DNA of 40,715 nucleotides from the NCBI GenBank assembly GCA_947627165.1, contig CANQUZ010000003.1, forward strand, positions 1 to 40,715. Reading direction: 5' to 3'. The notes beneath the pieces were generated by a model, which saw nothing but the letters and a program-made list of their open reading frames with translations, made no database searches and was not told the DNA's origin. How positions within the stretch are numbered: position 1 is the stretch's first letter; every line of letters starts with the position of its first letter. Position numbers and translations under genes: made by a program. This stretch comes from an uncultured Roseburia sp. Its GTDB lineage: Bacteria > Bacillota > Clostridia > Lachnospirales > Lachnospiraceae. Below are positions 13,145 to 39,417 of the stretch, in pieces.

Positions 13145-13831
13145 ATGAACAACTTTTTTGCAACGCCGGAAGGCGCCTGGGGCGACGGTTCGGTTCATCT
13201 GACCGGCACAGGCATCTTTCTGGTCGCTGCCATTACCGTCATCCTTTTGGTCGCTGCGGCTCTGCTGCGCCACCGAAACACACAAAAAAAAGCTGCCCTG
13301 ACGACAAAACAGCTTGTTTACTCGGCAGTCGCCATTGCCCTTGCGGTGGTTTGTTCCATGATAAAACTGTTCGAATTGCCCATGGGCGGTTCCGTCACCC
13401 TGCTTTCCATGCTCTTTATCGTGCTGATTGCTTACTGGTACGGCCCCTACGTGGGAATTATGACCGCAGTCGCCTATGGGTTGGTACAGTTCGTCACAGA
13501 ACCGATTTTCTATACCATTCCGCAGATGCTGTTGGATTACCCCTGTGCGTTCGGCGCTTTAGGACTTGCCGGATTCTTTTATAAGAAAAAATGGGGGCTT
13601 CAGATTGGATATGTCGTGGGCGTCATCGGCAGATTTTTATTTGCCACCCTCTCCGGCATCGTATTTTTCGCTTCTTATGCCCCGGAGGGGATGAGCCCCA
13701 TCGTCTACTCTATCAGTTATCAGGCCTCTTATCTCCTTCCGGAAATGATTGTGACTCTTATCATTATCAGCATTCCGGCGGTGTCAAAAGCCCTTGCCCA
13801 TATCAAGATTCGTGCGACGGAAAACATCTGA
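13145..13831 (+). CDS. ECF transporter S component, ThiT-like (thiamine)
   Basis: LPMGGSVTLLSMLFIVLIAYWYGPYVGIMTAVAYGLVQFVTEPIFYTIPQMLLDYPCAFGALGLAG; start placed after the promoter and RBS. Confidence 0.85.
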   Translation: MNNFFATPEGAWGDGSVHLTGTGIFLVAAITVILLVAAALLRHRNTQKKAALTTKQLVYSAVAIALAVVCSMIKLFELPMGGSVTLLSMLFIVLIAYWYGPYVGIMTAVAYGLVQFVTEPIFYTIPQMLLDYPCAFGALGLAGFFYKKKWGLQIGYVVGVIGRFLFATLSGIVFFASYAPEGMSPIVYSISYQASYLLPEMIVTLIIISIPAVSKALAHIKIRATENI

Positions 13832-13841
13832 AAGAAAAAAT

Positions 13842-13882
13842 CTAACAATCGAAAACATCATTTGCGGGTTTTCGATTGTTAG
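13842..13882. terminator. Bidirectional terminator hairpin (copy 1)
   Basis: ctaacaatcgaaaac-atcatttgcgg-gttttcgattgttag perfect 15-bp stem followed by T-rich sequence; A-rich on the other side. Confidence 0.85.
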
Positions 13883-14033
13883 ATAGGCTTTTAATAAAGC
13901 ATAAAGTCAAAATCTTCTCATTGTTCTTTCTGCGGCTTTCTACATATGCTGTCGCCTCAAGCGTCTGCACTTCCTGTAACCCGATAACACGGAGAAGCTC
14001 GCCAAGTAGAAACGAATTAATCATTTTTATCAT
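13842..14033 (-). pseudogene. Chimeric ORF fused from TadE-like and FHA-gene fragments
   Basis: MIKMINSFLLGELLRVIGLQEVQTLEATAYVES is from the TadE-like protein (19479..20129); RRKNNEKI is from FHA protein 14787..16217; the tail reads through its 3' end and terminator. Confidence 0.8.
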
Positions 14034-14060
14034 ACACGCTCCTTAGCCACGACTTCTAAA

Positions 14061-14567
14061 TCAATGGTAATACCCTATCAACCATCCAATCACACCAGAC
14101 ACAACAAAAGGCATGAAATAAATGAGAAAGAAAAAGGGCTCATTTGAAAACTCACTATACGTGTATGCTTTTTTTCCCGACTCTTTGTAATAAAGTGTCA
14201 TTGTGCTTGGTAAATATTGAGAATATTTAGAACTTACCACTTTTGTCCTGCGTTTACCTTCAAGAACATACTCGTACCTCGCAATCCACCTATCCTTCGT
14301 AGTACCATTTGCATTTGTGTTATAGCTTCGCCTAAAGCTGACCCTTGCCGCCTCAAGCGTACGCCCATCCCTCTTTGCTTTTTCGACCCTCTTTTTGCCC
14401 CTTGAAAATATGATACCTTTATTAAGAAGAACAAACTCAACGACAAAAACTGCAATCGTGACAATCGCAAGCGTCATCCCAACAGGATCCTCAGAATAAT
14501 CCGATATAAGAGGATCAAATAACTCTAACAGCTTCTCTTTCAGTTTCGATAATAAATTGTCATACAT
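14061..14567 (-). CDS. DUF3592-like membrane protein, duplicate copy
   Basis: Intact 169-aa ORF from MYDNLLSKLKEK to WLIGYYH, paralogous to 20195..20701; AGGAG upstream. Differences cluster around residues after VSFRRS. Confidence 0.8.
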   Translation of the reverse strand: MYDNLLSKLKEKLLELFDPLISDYSEDPVGMTLAIVTIAVFVVEFVLLNKGIIFSRGKKRVEKAKRDGRTLEAARVSFRRSYNTNANGTTKDRWIARYEYVLEGKRRTKVVSSKYSQYLPSTMTLYYKESGKKAYTYSEFSNEPFFFLIYFMPFVVSGVIGWLIGYYH

Positions 14568-14737
14568 ATCCAAAATCTCCTTCTGCCAAGTATAGTATGA
14601 CTTCATTATACATAGAAAGAAATTATCTGCCAAGGAGTTTCCTGTCCGGTTTCTACCATACAGCAGTCTTCCGGCGGTGTCAAAAGCCCTTGCCCATATC
14701 AAGATTCGTGCGACGGAAAACGTCTGAAAGAAAAAAT

Positions 14738-14778
14738 CTAACAATCGAAAACATCATTTGCGGGTTTTCGATTGTTAG
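14738..14778. terminator. Bidirectional terminator hairpin (copy 2), 3' of the FHA gene
   Basis: Same 41-bp hairpin as 13842-13882. Confidence 0.85.
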
Positions 14779-14786
14779 ATAGGCTT

Positions 14787-16217
14787 TTAATAAAGCATAA
14801 AGTCAAATTCCTCATTTGCAAGGCGGATGATATCCCCATGCGATATTGCTGTCTCCACATTGCTCTGAAGCAGCCTTCCGTTTAGGAAGGTATGGTTTGT
14901 GGAGTTGGTGTCTACGACAAAGTACTCCCCGTCTCTGGTAATAAAATTAGCATGGCTGCGGCTGATGACATGATTGTCACTGATGTGATAATCCGCATAA
15001 CTTCTTTCCTTCCCCACACGGAATATCGGTTTATTTAAGAAAATCTTCTCATTGTTCTTTCTGCGGATAAGATGCGGCACCGTCATTTTCGCCGGGTCAT
15101 TTGTTTCCGTCAATAAGGTTGTCTCCCCCATTGAGCTTTCATTGAGCAAAGTCGTCTCTCCAAATCCAGCGGCAACATTCCCAGCCCCTTTTTCCGGTGC
15201 ATAAGCAGGCTGCGGTGCAGGCGCTGTGGATTTCTGCACGGTCGGCTGTGAGCTGACTTGCACCGCAGGCGGCGTCTGCCCCGGGACAGCAAACCCAAAA
15301 TTATTTGCCGGCTGCGCCGCTGACGGTGCCCCTTTATCCGAAACCTTCTTCTCCGCCTTCTTGCCCTTGCTTGCCGCGGCACGTTTCCTAGCCTCTTTCT
15401 GCGCTTTATATGCCGCCGCATTTTCTTTGTTATAATGCTGCATGAGATAAAAAAAGCTGATTTCAGATTTTTCGCCTTTTGCATCGGCTGCTGGCGGCGT
15501 TTCCGGTATCGCCTTTTTCTGTGCGGGCGGAACATTCATACGTTCTGCCGGAGCTGCGACAGGGGGCGTTGGCTTCTTAGGGGGCTGCACAGGCTGAATC
15601 TGCGCTGCGGCAGGCTGAATCCTCGTTTCCCTCTTTACCCCAGAAGAAGCCGGCTGCGCATTTTCTCTCTGGATCTCTTCCAACAGTTTTTTGAAGTCGC
15701 TGAGAGAGAACAGGGGCGTTCCATTTAAGTAGTTTATAATTTTTGCTACATGATCGCAGTTTTCTGTTTGATCAAACCGGGTGTTAAACATAATATTGCG
15801 GAAAAACATCCCAAGATCCGGCTGTTTCATCTCCGTATCTACTAAGGGAACACAGATTAAGTCTGTCTCACAGGAAGAAACATCGGTAAAAATATAATCC
15901 AAATCCATAATAATCGAGGCGGGATCCAACATATAATCCTCTGCCGCCATCATTGCATTTACAATCCCTGAAAAAACGCCCAAAAGACGCTTCTTATTTA
16001 CTGCGCCTGCAAAAAACTGTGCGACAGAAACCTTTGCGGAAACATTGTATTTGATAAATTTCTGGCTGTTCATTTGCGTGAACAGCGTCTGTGCCAGCCC
16101 ATGAATATTATTATTGGTAAGCATACCAAGGCTCATGCTGTCTATGGCGTCCTGCTCTTTCACGTCATACACAAGGTATGTACTGTTCCCCTGGTTTTCG
16201 TAATATAAATCTCTCAT
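14787..16217 (-). CDS. FHA domain protein with DUF6382-like N-terminus (Tad-locus associated)
   Basis: C-terminal FHA: FRVGKERSYADYHISDNHVISRSHANFITRDGEYFVVDTNSTNHTFLNGRLL. Pro/Ala-rich linker with two GETTLL motifs. Confidence 0.9.
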   Translation of the reverse strand: MRDLYYENQGNSTYLVYDVKEQDAIDSMSLGMLTNNNIHGLAQTLFTQMNSQKFIKYNVSAKVSVAQFFAGAVNKKRLLGVFSGIVNAMMAAEDYMLDPASIIMDLDYIFTDVSSCETDLICVPLVDTEMKQPDLGMFFRNIMFNTRFDQTENCDHVAKIINYLNGTPLFSLSDFKKLLEEIQRENAQPASSGVKRETRIQPAAAQIQPVQPPKKPTPPVAAPAERMNVPPAQKKAIPETPPAADAKGEKSEISFFYLMQHYNKENAAAYKAQKEARKRAAASKGKKAEKKVSDKGAPSAAQPANNFGFAVPGQTPPAVQVSSQPTVQKSTAPAPQPAYAPEKGAGNVAAGFGETTLLNESSMGETTLLTETNDPAKMTVPHLIRRKNNEKIFLNKPIFRVGKERSYADYHISDNHVISRSHANFITRDGEYFVVDTNSTNHTFLNGRLLQSNVETAISHGDIIRLANEEFDFMLY

Positions 16218-27182: not shown

Positions 27183-30100
27183 TTATCCAACCACTATCTT
27201 TTTGCGCTTCCTTAAGAAGAAAGCCGCTCCCGCAGATCCGCCTGCCACAACGCCTGCCGTTCCTCCAATGGTGCCCCAGAACAGCGCTTTATCTGCGTAC
27301 CAGCGTACAAAGAAGTTTGTTGATACGATGACCGAATCGAAGAATGGGAATGCCGACGTAAACTTCTCCGATGACGTATCTGTGACATTGCCTGCCAGGT
27401 CGGTGACAACCAGTTTTACGTTTTGCGCCGACTTGCTCTCTCCTAACACGAAACTTTCGGAATAATTGTTCGCATCGCCTGAAAAGTCCGTGATATGGTT
27501 CACTTCTTTCCCATCCACCAGCACGACTACCGACTGCAGTCCAATCGTGTCGTATACCTGATACGAGACGTTTACTTCCGGCGCATTGATAATGCTGCTT
27601 TCCAGTCCCGTTATACTGTTGATTTCGGGAGCTGTTCCGTCCACCCGGAACAGGATTGCATTGTTTTCATAATTGGTGTGATCCGGCGTGTTTTCCGGTG
27701 TGTTTCCAGTGGCGTCCTCTGAGGATACCGCTATTTTATAGATTCCATCTGTATCAAAGTTATCTTTGCTGATGGTGTATTGATACTGGTACCATCCGCT
27801 GCTGCCCACTTCCGTCTGCTCACTGATATCCGGCGTGACATTGTATGCAGAAGAATCTAAGGGCCTTCCGTCTTTGGAAATCTCAATGTCTAAGGACTGG
27901 TTCACTAAGCGATCCGCGTTATACTCCGTGATGACCAAATCATCCGAAACTTTCTGCACATAGGCGCCTCCGTCCTTAATCAGGGACACCAGATAATCGC
28001 TGTATTCATAGACGGAACCATAGCGGTTGACTGTAAATGTCTCTTCCTTCTCAATGGTATGCCCCGCCCTGTCTTTCAGCGAAACCTTAACGGTGTAAAT
28101 CCCGTCGTTTTCTTTGATTTTTTCAAAGGTGTCAAACGTCGCGCTTCCGCCGTTTTCATTCACGGAAATCCCCTTATTGAGAAAGGTTTCCGTTACGTCT
28201 ATGTTTTTGTCCGCATAGCTGGTCCTTGCCAAAGATACCTCGTAGCTTTCAAAGTTCGTATCCTCAAAGGATATCCCCAGCACAACGTCGTCCTTAAACG
28301 CTTTTCCATCGGCGTCCCCGCCATTGACGGTAATCACGGCTTCTTTGATATCCGTATCAATCGTCAGCTGGTCTGATGTATATTCCTGCATCTGATTATT
28401 GGACTTGTCCGTATGGTTGATAGTGATAAAATAATCGCCGTCTTCCGCCAACGTGAACGTCCCCACGTGCACGTCCGTACTGTTGTCGCTCCATACCGGA
28501 CGAACCGGATATGCCGCTCCATCCTTTGTCACCTCTACCACCGCGTCCTCTTCATAGAAGTTTGCTTCCTCTATGGTTATGGTTGCCGTAATGTCACCAT
28601 CATAATAAGATATGGTTCCATTCGTCTGGACTGGCGCATTGCACTCTACCGTTGCGGTCGGGGAAATGTTATCTACCACAATTCTCTTATCGTCCTCCAG
28701 ATAATCCGATTCATTTCCCGCCCGGTCAGCTGCCGCAAACTGAACGCTTCCGTTAAACTGCTCCGTATTGGTCAGCGCATCCCTTGGAATTTCAAATGTC
28801 GCCGTTGCCGTCGCCCCGCCATCCGAATAGGCAATGTTTGATTCCTCTATCACTTCCTCCGTAAGCTCCGCATTTACCCCGCTTACGCCTTCCGCTTTCA
28901 GATAACTATAAGTAAACTGGTTCACGGTGGAAATATCGTCCGTCGCCGTAACCGTTACCGTCGCCTTTTCGTTATAGAAGCCGAACGAAATGCCTGATAA
29001 GATGGCCTCAAGGATACTTGTGCTGTATGAAATCTGCAAATCCGCCGGTTTGGAGGTGTCCACGGTAAAATACTCCTCGTTGTAATCCTCCGCCTCATTG
29101 GTCGCCATATCCGTATACGCGACATCAAAGGTATAATTCGCGTCTCCCGGATAAGTGATTGTGATGGTATGCTGAGCCCCCTGTGTCGTCCATGCCGACT
29201 TATAGCTGACGCTGTCCTCATTTAAACTGTTTCCCGCCGCGTCGGTTGCAAGGATGGTAAACTCCACTTCGTCCGCGTCAAAATTGTGTTCTGTCACTGT
29301 CACTGTGGCAGTCTGCGTCGTATTCCAGTAGATGCGCTCATGCCCTTCGGAATCTTCCATCTTATTTTCAGCCATCTCCTTTTTATTGGCATAGGCTACG
29401 TCTATGACGGGCGCCGTCGTATCCATGACCAGTGTCTTGGATGTATACGTCTTCATTTTGTTATCGCTTCTGTCCGTATACGCAACCGTAATGACATAAT
29501 CGCCGTCATTTGCATGGTTGGATCGCGCCGCTATAGAATAGGTCGCCCTATGGACATCTGTGGATAAATCTTCCCATTCCAGAGAAAGCTCTTTTGCCTC
29601 TCCGCCGTCTTTTGAGACTTTAACCACCACATCCTCGCCGTAGAAATTTGCCTCATTTACCGTAAAGGTGACTGCAGCGGCATTGTTATAGTACATCTTA
29701 TTCCCTGCCGTCCTGTCAGCCTCGGTGTATTCCGCTGTCATGGAAGGCGTAATGGTATCTACGACAATGACGTGTTTGGTGTCCGTCACTTTATTGCTCC
29801 TATTGTTATATTTATCTGTGGCGGTGAATGCCATGGTTCCTCGGAGCTGCTCCGCCTCTTTCTTAGGCAGGATGATGGATGCCGTAAATTTTGACGCATC
29901 GGCGGAATCCTGTTTCACGTTCACTTTGGCGTCACTGTATTCTTCTATGTTTGACTCACTTACGCCTTTCTGACGCATATAACTCCGGATAAAATAATCA
30001 ATGCCTGACGTCTCATCATATGCCGTAAAGGTCACGGTCACGGACGGATTATAATAACCAAAGGTAATCAAAGACAGCGCTTTGTCTAATACGGATTCCG

Positions 30101-33100
30101 AATAAGTAATGCTCATGCCCGATGTCGAAGGCGCCTTATGGTCTACAATAAATGGCCCGCTTGCCACCTCCGCCGCCGGATTTAACGCCAAATCTTTGTA
30201 TTGAATTGCCACATTGTATATGGCATCTGCAAACTGAGAGGAAATTTTTGCGGTATGCACATCTCCCTTTTTCGTCCATACACAGGTTCTAAGATAATCC
30301 TGCAGGTCTGCGGTCGAAACGTTTTCGCCCCTGATATTTACTGCGGACATCGTAACGTCGATATCCTCTTTTCTGAAATTATGTTCCGTAATGCGGATTG
30401 TGGCTGTCTGAGGTTCTTTTTCCGCCGTATAGTCATTATAAGAGAACTCAACGATCGGAATTGTCCCGTCAATCACAATTTTCCCTGACGTGTACGTCGG
30501 TATTGCTTTGCCTACAGGATCCGTATATTCCACGCTGACGACATAGTCGCCGTCCCCGGAAAGCGTAAATTTTGCCTCATGCTCATCCTGCTTTCCGGTA
30601 TCCTTCCATGCCACGGACTGCTTCGTTTTTTCGCCGTTATTTTTGCTGACATAAATGCTGGCGTCGCCCGCAAAAAAGTTTGCCTCGGTAATATCCACGG
30701 TAAATTCCACATCGCCCGAAAAATAATGAGTGTCGCCCACTTTCTGCTGCGTCCCGCCGTTTTTCAGCTGATAGGTAATCGTCTCTTTTGGGGAAACGGT
30801 ATCAACGACCAACAGATTTCCTGTGTCGTCTTGGACATCCGATTCGTTCCCCGCTTTGTCTATCGCCATCATCTTCAAGGAGCCGTTTAATTGTTCCGCA
30901 ACTTCACTGGGAAGCTGTATTACAGCGGTGTATGTGCCGTCTGTGCCATTCTGTTTCGCTTCCACACTTCCTTTGTCTGTTTTAAGGTTTGTATCGCTGG
31001 ATCCTTCCTTGCGGTTATACTCCCAGACAATTTCCGCTACTCCCGATGTAGCGTCATATGCCGTAAAGGTAACGTCCACGACAGAATCATAGTAGTTCAC
31101 TTTGTAATTCGCTTCGTCCTTAACAGCTTTCGCGTTTGAATACTGAATGCCCAATCTATCCGGTTTTATGCTGTCCAGACGGATGATTTCAGTCGGAATC
31201 TGAGCCGTTATCCCTTTTGTTTCCTTATTTTTTAGGTATACGATCCTGTCCTTTTCCCCTTGGTCGCCAAATACTACGGAATCAGCAAAGGTTCCGTCTA
31301 CTGCATCGGAAATCTGATATCCTTCCGCCGGCACTACCGTTACCGCAGTCTTATACCACCCCGCCTTGCCGTTAGGTTCTGTCAGTTTCGTTCCATCCGG
31401 AGCCAGAAGCGTGATGGGTGTTCCGGGTGTTGGTTCTAAATTTATCTCAATCTCATAAGATGCGGTTGCCGCGCCATAGACTGTCCTGGCAACGCTTTCA
31501 CCTTTCGCAATTTTCGTTCCCTCAGCCTTATTGGCAGTAACTGTTACGCTGATTTTGCCGCCAGCTTCTTCAAGTGCCTTACTTAATTTAACAATGTCTG
31601 AAACGCTTATCTTTCCGCTTTTCAAATCAATCTCTAATCCCGCTTCCGAAATATTGTCGTTGGTTTCCCACAGTTTCGCCTGATAAGAAATGTCCCCCTT
31701 GTCGCCGTTGTTGTTGTCGTTGTTGTCGCCGTTGTTGTTGTCGTTGTTGTCGCCGTTGTTGCCATAAGTTTTTTGCGCCACCATAAAAGGCACCGTCTGC
31801 TGCCCAATCGTGTAATCAACACTTTCCTCATCAGACTTCACCAGCCCGCTTTCTGTGTTTTTCAATGCAAACTTCAGCAGCCCGCTTTCTGTGTTTTTCA
31901 ATGCAACGGATACACTGCACATCGCTTCTTCATAGTTTTTATCACCCTCTACCGATGCCGTCACCTTTATGATATATCCGCCCTTTTTAACAGTGAGTTT
32001 TCCTTGCCCGTCTATAGACGCAATTTGAGTAATGTCCGTACTGTCGTCAACCGCGCAATTCTCTACCTTGTATGATATCTCCCTGCCTTCACCTGATGTT
32101 GCAGACTCTGCTTTGAAATCAACACTTGTCTCTGTTCCGTCACATTCTATCTCTGGAACCGGTGATAAAAAGGAAATTTCCTGCTCCGCTTTTGCTATGG
32201 TAATCTGCACAGTTCCTAAATCGGTTTCAGCATAGTTGCCAGCCTCTTCACCCTCTCCTCTTACCCTAAGTTTTACTTCATAAGTTCCGGCATCTTTTCC
32301 TATCGGCTTCCCTTCAGACCACTTAGACCACGCAATCGGCTCCGGCCACTCAATCGATCCCCCTTCTTTAAACTGCACGCTGTATTCAACGACATAGTCA
32401 GATGCTTCACCATTCAATGCGTTCTTAAGCTCGTCATTTCCCCCCGTGTATGCAATGTCCAAAAGTTCCTGTTCTTGTCCTGTATAAACAAACTTCTCTG
32501 ATTTGGGGGAAACTGTTATTCCTGTAGTATCTATTTTGGCTTGCGTAATTTCTGCCTTACCCCACGTTTCTGAGTCGATTGTAAAATCATAATAGTTGTT
32601 TCTTTGAATCGTTACTTTATAGGAGTAACTTCCTACTTTTTTAATCTGAGGTATATTCGCTTCCTCTATTTCATAAACATAAGTATAATCTTTTCCATCA
32701 TAGTTTATAGTGATGATATCCCCTTTAATTACACCCTTAATGTTGACAATATTATGCTCTTTACCGTCATATATTTCATTACATGGAGTTATTTCAATAT
32801 CCATGTTTGCTTGCTTAATTTCTGCATCACTCACCCCACCATCTGTTCCTGAGCTAATCACAAAGTCATTGTAGTTTTTGTTTCTTTGAATCGTTACTTT
32901 ATAGGGGTAACTTCCTGCGTTTATAATCTTAGGTATCTCATTTTCACTTTCTTCTCCGTTGTAAGTATAAGTACAACTTGTTTCAAGACATTCAATCGTA
33001 ATCCAATCGCCAATCTCCGCCCCTTTAATGTCGACAATATTATGCTCTTTACCGTCATAGGTTTCATTACATGGAGTTATTTCAATATCCATGTTTGCTT

Positions 33101-33629
33101 GCGTAATTTCTGCATTACTCAGCTTTTCTGGGTCGATTATAAAGTCATTAAAGTTCCCCTCTCTGCTAATCTTTATACCATAGGAATAAGAAGCTACTTC
33201 TTCAATTTCCGGTACTTTTTCTGTATAAGGATATGGATATTCTTCTCCCTCATATATAACAGTAGCCTTATCGCCGTCTACTATTCCTATAATCTTCTCA
33301 ACAACCGGATGCCCTTTCTTATCATAAACATTCTTCCAAGGAGTTATTTCAAGTTCCCCTTTGTCTAGCTTTTCAGTATAGAGAGCTATCAGCTCGTCGC
33401 TTTTCTCCCCTTGCTCAGTCCCCTCTTTTTTCACATCATTTTCTTTCTCTTCGGGATCTGCCTCCGTTGTGTCATCCTCTGTGGACTCCCCCGTTTCACT
33501 CCCACTCTGAGGTGTTTCCTGCGCACCTCCTACACGCATAGTAGAAAAAGGAATAAAGTTTAGTAACATCATGACAACCATCAGTGACGCAATCATTTTT
33601 AAAATCTTCTTTTCAGTCATCCTTTTCAT
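27183..33629 (-). CDS. Giant (2148 aa) surface protein with MBG-like and Ig-like repeats
   Basis: N-terminal signal sequence, repeated [14 protein letters not shown]-type modules, then repeated Ig-like modules ([14 protein letters not shown]..., [15 protein letters not shown]...), C-terminal [32 protein letters not shown]. Confidence 0.88.
31701..31763 (-). repeat. 24-bp-period tandem repeat encoding GDNNDNNN
   Basis: gtcgccgttgttgttgtcgttgtt units in the giant gene. Confidence 0.9.
31843..31906 (-). repeat. 36-bp-period duplication encoding ALKNTESGL
   Basis: agcccgctttctgtgtttttcaatgcaa at 31843-31870 and 31879-31906. Confidence 0.9.
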
Positions 33630-37792: not shown

Positions 37793-37819
37793 GATTGCGT
37801 AGAACTGCCTGTTCTTAAC
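37793..37819. repeat. 27-bp inverted repeat, left copy, flanking the tyrosine recombinase
   Basis: gattgcgtagaactgcctgttcttaac is the exact reverse complement of 39293-39319. Confidence 0.95.
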
Positions 37820-37885
37820 AAACCTGCAAAAAGCCCTGTTTTTACCGCATTTATCAAAATGTAAGACCATTTCTTTGACCATTTA

Positions 37886-39016
37886 TCACACGCCAAGCCG
37901 TGCCAGTTTTTCTATCTGGGTTCTTTTTTGTTCCACAGACGAATGCACATAGGTATTTAAGGTGATATTTACGGAAGCATGGCCTAATAATTCGCTTAGC
38001 GTCTTAATATCTACGCCGACTTCCACGCAGCGGGTTGCAAAGGTGTGGCGCAATCCGTGAAAATGAATGTCTGTTATGCCGCAGTTCTGCAAAATTTTAT
38101 GGTAGCGGTATTCAAATGTCCTGGGACTTACAAAAACATCCGTCGTTGAAACGGCAAACTCGGAGTTTGATATGGATTTCCAGTTTTTTAGGATTGCCAG
38201 CAGTTTTGAATTGATGGGAACATCCCTGGCGGAAGCCCTGGTTTTGGGAACATCTATCACCAATTTTGTTTTGGAAGCTGCGCCGCAGTCCTCATTCTTC
38301 ACGCGGGATACCGTATGCCGGATATGGATGATCTTATTTTCAAAATCAACCTCTTCCCATCTGAGCGCGCATATTTCTCCTATGCGCAGTCCCCCATAGA
38401 TTGCCAATGCGATTCCGGTTTCGGTGCAGCCTGTATTTTGGGCGATGTATCTTTCCAGTTCCAACTGTGAATTTAAGTCCAACACCTCTGTTTCCTGCTT
38501 TACGGCTGCGGGCTTGGCGATATAATGGTTTTTTAATTCCCCCCGGTATCCCATGGCTGCGGCATATTCCAGGACAGACGTCAGAACAATCAAAATCAGT
38601 TTTACATAAGAAGAACTAAGGGGCTCCCGATTTTTCAAGTTACCCGACGCCATCTTATTGGAAATAAATCTGGCAATAGCGTGTTCATCCAGCGTTTGGA
38701 TGTCATAGGCTTGAAAGACAGGCATTAAGTGGGTTTCCAGAATCGTCTGATATTTTAACAGCGTCGCCCCTTTATGATTCGCAGACTGTAACAAAAGCCA
38801 TTCTCCCGCGATTTCGCCAAATGTCTTCCCCTGATTCCGCCTCTCTTCCTCTGATTCACACTCCTTTTTTAGGTTTAACAGTTTCTCCTTGACTTCATGA
38901 TAGGTTTTGCCATAAAGGGATTTGATCTTTGCCGATCCATTGGCATAAGATAATTTCACACGCGCTTCCCATCTTCCATCTTTTCTTTTCCGAATATTTT
39001 CTCCTCTTTTAGACAT
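37886..39016 (-). CDS. Tyrosine recombinase/integrase
   Basis: Catalytic motifs YGGLRIGEICALRW, FHGLRHTFATRCVEVGVDIKTLSELLGHASVNITLNTYVH; N-terminal arm-binding-like KRKDGRWEARVKL. Confidence 0.95.
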   Translation of the reverse strand: MSKRGENIRKRKDGRWEARVKLSYANGSAKIKSLYGKTYHEVKEKLLNLKKECESEEERRNQGKTFGEIAGEWLLLQSANHKGATLLKYQTILETHLMPVFQAYDIQTLDEHAIARFISNKMASGNLKNREPLSSSYVKLILIVLTSVLEYAAAMGYRGELKNHYIAKPAAVKQETEVLDLNSQLELERYIAQNTGCTETGIALAIYGGLRIGEICALRWEEVDFENKIIHIRHTVSRVKNEDCGAASKTKLVIDVPKTRASARDVPINSKLLAILKNWKSISNSEFAVSTTDVFVSPRTFEYRYHKILQNCGITDIHFHGLRHTFATRCVEVGVDIKTLSELLGHASVNITLNTYVHSSVEQKRTQIEKLARLGV

Positions 39017-39234
39017 CGTTTTACCTCATTTCTGCGCCGCTTTTGCCCCGGCTTTGCCGAGGCGCAGGCTTGTTTCTGCCTTCCGAATTTGGTTTATGAC
39101 CATTTTTTTGACCCTTAAAATCATTTTTTTACACTTTTTAGATTTAAAAATCAACAAATACCACAAAACTTTCGTACATTTTTTATTCTTATTGGTTATT
39201 TTGTTGAAAAAATATAGAAACCGTGATAGAAATC

Positions 39235-39263
39235 TTGCAAAAAAATAGGCGATATGTTAGACT
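39235..39263 (+). promoter_or_regulatory. Candidate promoter directed outward across the right inverted repeat
   Basis: TTGCAA (39235-39240), 17-nt spacer, TAGACT (39258-39263) preceded by TGT (extended -10-like). Confidence 0.4.
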
Positions 39264-39292
39264 GACAGTAGTTTTTTATACCATGGCAGGAC

Positions 39293-39319
39293 GTTAAGAA
39301 CAGGCAGTTCTACGCAATC
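39293..39319. repeat. 27-bp inverted repeat, right copy
   Basis: gttaagaacaggcagttctacgcaatc is the exact reverse complement of 37793-37819. Confidence 0.95.
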
Positions 39320-39385: not shown

Positions 39386-39417
39386 AAAGGGCGGGCTTCC
39401 CTATGGAAGTCCGCCCT
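39386..39417 (-). terminator. Intrinsic terminator of the flavodoxin gene
   Basis: Minus strand AGGGCGGACTTCC-atag-GGAAGCCCGCCCT followed by TTTTTC. Confidence 0.8.

Follow-up and report, generated by a model that had tools for sequence, protein, structure and literature searches.

A probable self-contained invertible promoter cassette at the head of a Tad pilus operon in an uncultured Roseburia species

At the head of a long operon encoding a Tad pilus and phospho-signalling proteins, a tyrosine recombinase gene of an uncultured Roseburia sp. lies between two inverted repeats, which raises the question of whether the enclosed segment is inverted by its own enzyme and how its orientation would affect the operon. 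The analysis was carried out on a 40,715-nt stretch of contig CANQUZ010000003.1, hereafter called the window, and on related loci designated by L numbers. The evidence makes it highly likely that the segment at 37793-39319 constitutes a self-contained invertible promoter cassette controlling the Tad operon. The relevant features are listed below.

14736-14780, minus strand: terminator at the operon end, a 17-bp perfect hairpin with a T-run
14787-37676, minus strand: target operon, 16 genes on one strand, about 22.9 kb
37793-37819, plus strand: left inverted repeat, the recombination core site on the operon side; homologous cores lie at the same place in relatives
37865-37880, minus strand: putative arm-type site near the recombinase stop codon, GGTCAAAGAAATGGTC, a paired GGTC motif
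37886-39016, minus strand: tyrosine recombinase gene inside the repeats, 376 aa, with arm-binding, core-binding and catalytic domains
39098-39113, minus strand: putative arm-type site near the recombinase start codon, GGTCAAAAAAATGGTC, a direct repeat of the stop-side site
39235-39263, plus strand: predicted outward promoter with -35 TTGCAA (39235-39240), a 17-nt spacer and the extended -10 TGtTAGACT
39293-39319, minus strand: right inverted repeat, identical to the reverse complement of the left copy
39388-39417, plus strand: strong terminator with a 13-bp stem, which would stop transcripts from the outward promoter when the segment is OFF

The repeats, the operon and the recombinase

The original prediction had placed perfect 27-bp inverted repeats around the recombinase gene, and both their coordinates and their exact reverse complementarity were borne out. 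The repeat reads GATTGCGTAGAACTGCCTGTTCTTAAC on the plus strand (37793-37819) and the two copies match at 27/27 positions; each contains the inner dyad AGAAC-TGCCT-GTTCT, the anticipated AGAAC-nnnnn-GTTCT arrangement with TGCCT as its spacer. No third copy with up to three mismatches occurred in the window (0 expected from 100 dinucleotide shuffles), and at the same threshold the whole 2.37-Mb MAG returned these two sites only and no flipped or additional copy; an exact search of viral contigs for the repeat gave no match. Besides the duplicated terminator hairpin near 13840-14780, the 27-bp repeat is the sole perfect inverted repeat of at least 16 nt in the window. The 1473 bp between the two copies carry one gene, with no cargo and no second mobility gene. 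The left repeat was found in its predicted place ahead of the first Tad-operon gene, the distance from its end to the FHA/DUF6382 ATG (37676), estimated at about 117 bp, being 116 nt when measured.

The measured extent of the operon agreed with the predicted ~23 kb. Its genes encode, in order, an FHA/DUF6382 protein, a PP2C phosphatase, a Ser/Thr kinase, a 163-aa protein and a 2148-aa repeat protein, followed by TadZ, TadA, TadB, TadC, a prepilin peptidase and a WG-repeat protein and, at the end, two unknowns, a DUF5702 protein, a TadE-like protein and a further FHA/DUF6382 protein; the intergenic gaps are mostly shorter than 60 nt. The 2148-aa repeat-containing protein (27183-33629) returned no confident Pfam domain, and, judged from its size and position, it may be an adhesin or a surface protein associated with the pilus. 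Just past the operon end, a 150-nt direct repeat (97%; 13768-13917 and 14664-14813), which contains the terminator hairpin of the operon, encloses 0.75 kb of sequence that includes a 227-aa ORF and looks like an insertion or duplication.

The open reading frame at 37886-39016 was confirmed to encode the predicted tyrosine recombinase by its PF00589 domain (E=2.5e-29), which is accompanied by PF14659. The catalytic residues R211, K258, H320, R323, H346 and Y356, corresponding to the RKHRH plus Tyr set, are invariant in 45 relatives. The predicted model of the protein (mean pLDDT 90) showed an N-terminal domain at residues 8-61 consisting of three strands and a helix (E8-10, E16-25, E28-36, H39-61), together with a beta insertion in the catalytic domain, read from the secondary structure of the model only (strands 235-240 and 250-255). 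The nearest solved proteins in the PDB, by both sequence and fold, were the Tn1549 integrase structures. An arm-binding domain of three strands plus a helix defines the IntTn916 subgroup (PMC8138268), and the predicted N-terminal fold of the recombinase agrees with it.

GGTC-N8-GGTC pairs flank the recombinase gene and lie on its coding strand. When the family of cassettes described below was inspected, a coding-strand pair occurred upstream of the gene in 38/57 cassettes and downstream in 16/55, where 0.6 and 0.3 were expected, and the opposite strand of the same cassettes contained none. Within the Tad-linked clade the spacing between the pairs and the cores varies little (135-179 nt and 38-49 nt). 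We infer from these patterns that the GGTC pairs are putative arm-type sites, a function as autoregulatory operators being the alternative. The paired sites and the N-terminal arm-binding fold are details new to this analysis, and the latter is usually the mark of a mobile-element integrase.

Outward promoter and flipped homologues

The predicted promoter lies in the 276 nt that separate the recombinase start from the right repeat, with its -10 hexamer at 39258-39263 and a distance of 29 nt to the repeat; the corresponding distance is 26-30 nt in L033, L034, L035, L036, L128 and L129. With 8/12 consensus positions plus the extended -10, it falls below the majority of family promoters in strength. 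Sigma-70 promoters were scored in 57 cassettes over the stretch from the 5' repeat to the recombinase start, resulting in mean scores of 11.1 outward, 9.1 inward and 8.8 for dinucleotide-shuffled sequences. Outward scores exceeded inward ones with a Wilcoxon P of 7e-10, a value that overstates independence because the cassettes are related, and near-consensus scores (at least 11.5) were reached outward in 31 of the 57 and inward in one. The 5' gap of the cassettes is by this scoring the predicted site of an outward-facing sigma-70 promoter, whose conservation would explain the switching.

The deposited orientation of the window is probably the OFF state, because the predicted promoter points rightward, away from the Tad operon and into the strong terminator at 39388-39417, which is also positioned to end the convergent flavodoxin gene. 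No match to the promoter consensus was found on the minus strand in the interval from the left repeat to the FHA start. Neither the promoter nor the orientation state had been part of the original prediction. A terminator placed like that of the window, beyond the 5' repeat, was rejected as a family-wide rule, a similar one being present in 10/57 cassettes.

A scan of the genome collection retrieved four recombinases (44-46% identity), all bracketed by inverted repeats with the common core GTAGAACT. Three have PP2C/kinase genes as neighbours, accompanied by FHA in two cases, and L036, the fourth, adjoins an FHA protein. Two closely related loci, L034 from a Eubacterium MAG and L035 from an uncultured Clostridia MAG, have a cassette and a neighbouring FHA/PP2C/kinase operon in common, yet the cassette is oriented oppositely in the two. 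Their segments align on the same strand (92%) and their flanks are reversed, with 91% identity on the operon side and 73-79% on the other. Across 1.8 kb spanning the cassette, identity rose from 55.1% unflipped to 89.8% once the L035 segment was flipped in silico, which identifies the repeats as the breakpoints. The opposite orientation expected in related genomes was thus found, with its boundaries at the repeats. The same inversion was observed between L173 and L174, two paralogous cassettes of one genome (segment 95%, reversed flank 92%).

The operon lies 3' of the recombinase in the window, L033, L034, L036, L075, L129, L130, L141 and L193, and 5' of it in L035 and L128. By our reading, the 3' position in Tad/FHA-linked cassettes would correspond to OFF and the 5' position to ON, labels that rest on the side of the likely target gene. 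On the recombinase tree, each of five ON cassettes needs a separate change, as expected from a frequently flipping switch. The MAG of the window contained a single orientation only, and the homologous cassettes on Enterococcus raffinosus plasmids of three strains, with a 26-nt perfect repeat, had the same orientation in all. Regarding the prediction that the segment inverts and switches the Tad operon, inversion found support in the flipped homologues (L034/L035; L128 versus the window, L075 and L130) and switching in the conserved outward promoter. The cassette is probably active in the window's species; promoter function, the ON/OFF effect on transcription and the role of the arm sites are what we infer from sequence.

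In the mechanism proposed, the enclosed Tn916/Tn1549-type tyrosine recombinase would recombine the two inverted cores and thereby flip the segment including its own gene. The promoter, which in the deposited orientation would fire away from the Tad operon into the terminator (OFF), would after inversion be directed at the operon; the leader up to the FHA start codon would then be ~165 nt long, and in this ON state the promoter would drive the FHA, PP2C, kinase, adhesin and Tad genes. The N-terminal domain probably binds the GGTC arm-type sites, where it may build or bias the recombination complex or autoregulate the gene.

The cassette family and alternative explanations

When 396 genomes belonging to the same family were searched with a profile, strong recombinase matches appeared in 99, about a quarter of those sampled. 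Strong inverted repeats surround the gene at 57 of the 80 recombinase loci examined, the window included; about 20 of the 80 showed no convincing repeat around the gene, contig ends being the cause in several. The family consensus of the repeat is near TTTCGYAGA-spacer-TCTRCGAAA. The two copies within a locus have almost identical core spacers, in part because matching repeats were the criterion for choosing cassettes, and spacers differ freely between loci; this pattern is as expected if both sites must match for recombination. A layout with the recombinase outside also occurs in the family, namely in L077, L142 and L158, where the repeat pair lies just downstream of the gene with 337-385 bp between the repeats. 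A general insulating terminator after the recombinase was rejected, such a terminator being present in only 6/57 cassettes.

The recombinase of the window belongs to a clade of ten (support 100/99), nine of which adjoin Tad or FHA/PP2C/kinase genes; for the tenth (L004/L074) the contig ends inside the cassette. A further Tad-type cassette, L193, left out of the recombinase tree, is carried by MT839697.1, a short 4-kb record from a phage collection filed as bacteriophage, in which a 36-nt perfect repeat is followed by TadZ (67%) and TadA (84%); it is probably bacterial DNA misfiled as phage.

Other targets were observed elsewhere in the family. Directly behind the repeat of seven other cassettes (loci including L161, L163, L178, L184 and L091) lies a gene for a ~450-aa protein with a TnpB/Cas12f-like TNB domain; the arrangement was seen with the cassette in either orientation, and phase variation of an RNA-guided-nuclease-like gene would be of note. 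Eight cassettes (L173, L080 and others of alignment A2) precede DEAD/SNF2-type helicase genes, mostly with a Helicase-associated (HA) domain. Genome G426 holds five family cassettes, two of which (L173 and L174) are near-copies in opposite orientation. Related recombinases were also detected on Enterococcus megaplasmids: the E. raffinosus cassettes (L190, L191 and L194) stand ahead of signal peptidase and hypothetical protein genes, and that of E. gilvus (L195), with weakly similar repeats, ahead of WxL-domain genes. The Enterococcus cassettes have paired CCGTCA motifs in place of GGTCA.

We consider it unlikely that, although the cassette inverts, most operon expression comes from read-through out of the recombinase gene in the deposited orientation, the flipped state being OFF or antisense. 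In the window the recombinase stop and the FHA gene are co-directional and about 210 nt apart with no clear terminator between them, and read-through could allow some OFF-state expression. However, L034-L036 and L128 have a terminator inside the cassette, just past the recombinase, which hinders read-through there, and the inward promoter scores (9.1) remain near those of shuffled sequences (8.8), the outward ones being far higher. A relic, once invertible and now locked in one orientation in the window's species, would account for the one orientation seen and for a promoter weaker than those of relatives, but relics should decay, and here the repeats are identical at all 27 positions and the gene, the catalytic residues and the arm sites are intact, making this a very improbable state of affairs.

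The segment might instead be a small mobile or degraded integrative element, with inverted-repeat ends arising by chance and an incidental position at the Tad operon. The Tn1549 integrase is the nearest solved relative, a survey of tyrosine recombinases called the arm-binding domain a strong predictor of mobility (PMC8138268), and the core-arm layout resembles the ends of integrative elements. The cassette nevertheless contains a single gene, occupies the same spot heading Tad/FHA operons across genera and in a supported clade and has a conserved outward promoter, and between L034 and L035 it was flipped, not moved; this reading is very improbable. The invertible promoter cassette controlling the Tad operon is the reading that we prefer.

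As a tentative extension of this reading, the cassettes may represent a widespread family of domesticated Tn916-type integrases reduced to switches. Their layout would run from core site, arm site, integrase and arm site to outward promoter and core site; since the arm sites are co-directional and the cores inverted, the two ends would remain distinguishable, as those of integrative elements are, and flipping could be subject to directional control. The clades would be specialised by target, one on Tad/FHA-kinase loci and others on TnpB-like, helicase and other genes.

Relation to known switches

It is well established that invertible promoters accompanied by tyrosine recombinases occur near surface genes, gut Clostridia being one of the groups concerned (PMC11892184). 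Inverton group 139 of Clostridia, with tyrosine invertase group 35 nearby, shifts orientation both in culture and on mucin carriers (PMC11892184) and shares with the present locus the short inverted repeats and a tyrosine recombinase close by. The two of its examples for which coordinates are printed have ~205 and 227 bp between the repeats (PMC11892184), not enough to hold a recombinase gene, whereas here the gene lies inside. No report of phase-variable Tad pili through DNA inversion was found in the open-access literature, an absence that is weak evidence. One compact cassette with enzyme, sites and promoter would explain on/off control of whole surface operons, and also how such control can spread between loci. 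Moreover, arm-binding tyrosine recombinases, which serve as marks of mobile elements, appear here in a resident switching role, and this matters for automated annotation of mobile elements.

With the Tn916/Tn1549 integrases the recombinase shares the arm-binding, core-binding and catalytic domains and its best PDB match; however, those enzymes move elements, while that of the window appears to invert a promoter segment without cargo. In the E. coli fimS (FimB/FimE) and C. difficile RecV switches, the recombinase is encoded outside the segment. In these systems too, a tyrosine recombinase inverts a segment with a promoter or leader ahead of an operon for a surface structure, but here the recombinase is inside the segment. 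Salmonella Hin is a serine recombinase, the class with the resolvase fold, and in its switch the promoter leaves the invertible segment. It is the cited case of a recombinase inside its invertible segment (PMC5903667), and both the location of the gene within the inverted segment and the promoter leading out are shared with the present cassette, which differs in its tyrosine recombinase (PF00589), arm-binding domain and arm-type sites and in its target, a Tad/phospho-signalling operon. The cassette would work like Hin with a Tn916-type tyrosine recombinase and is not a member of the Hin/Gin-type invertases.
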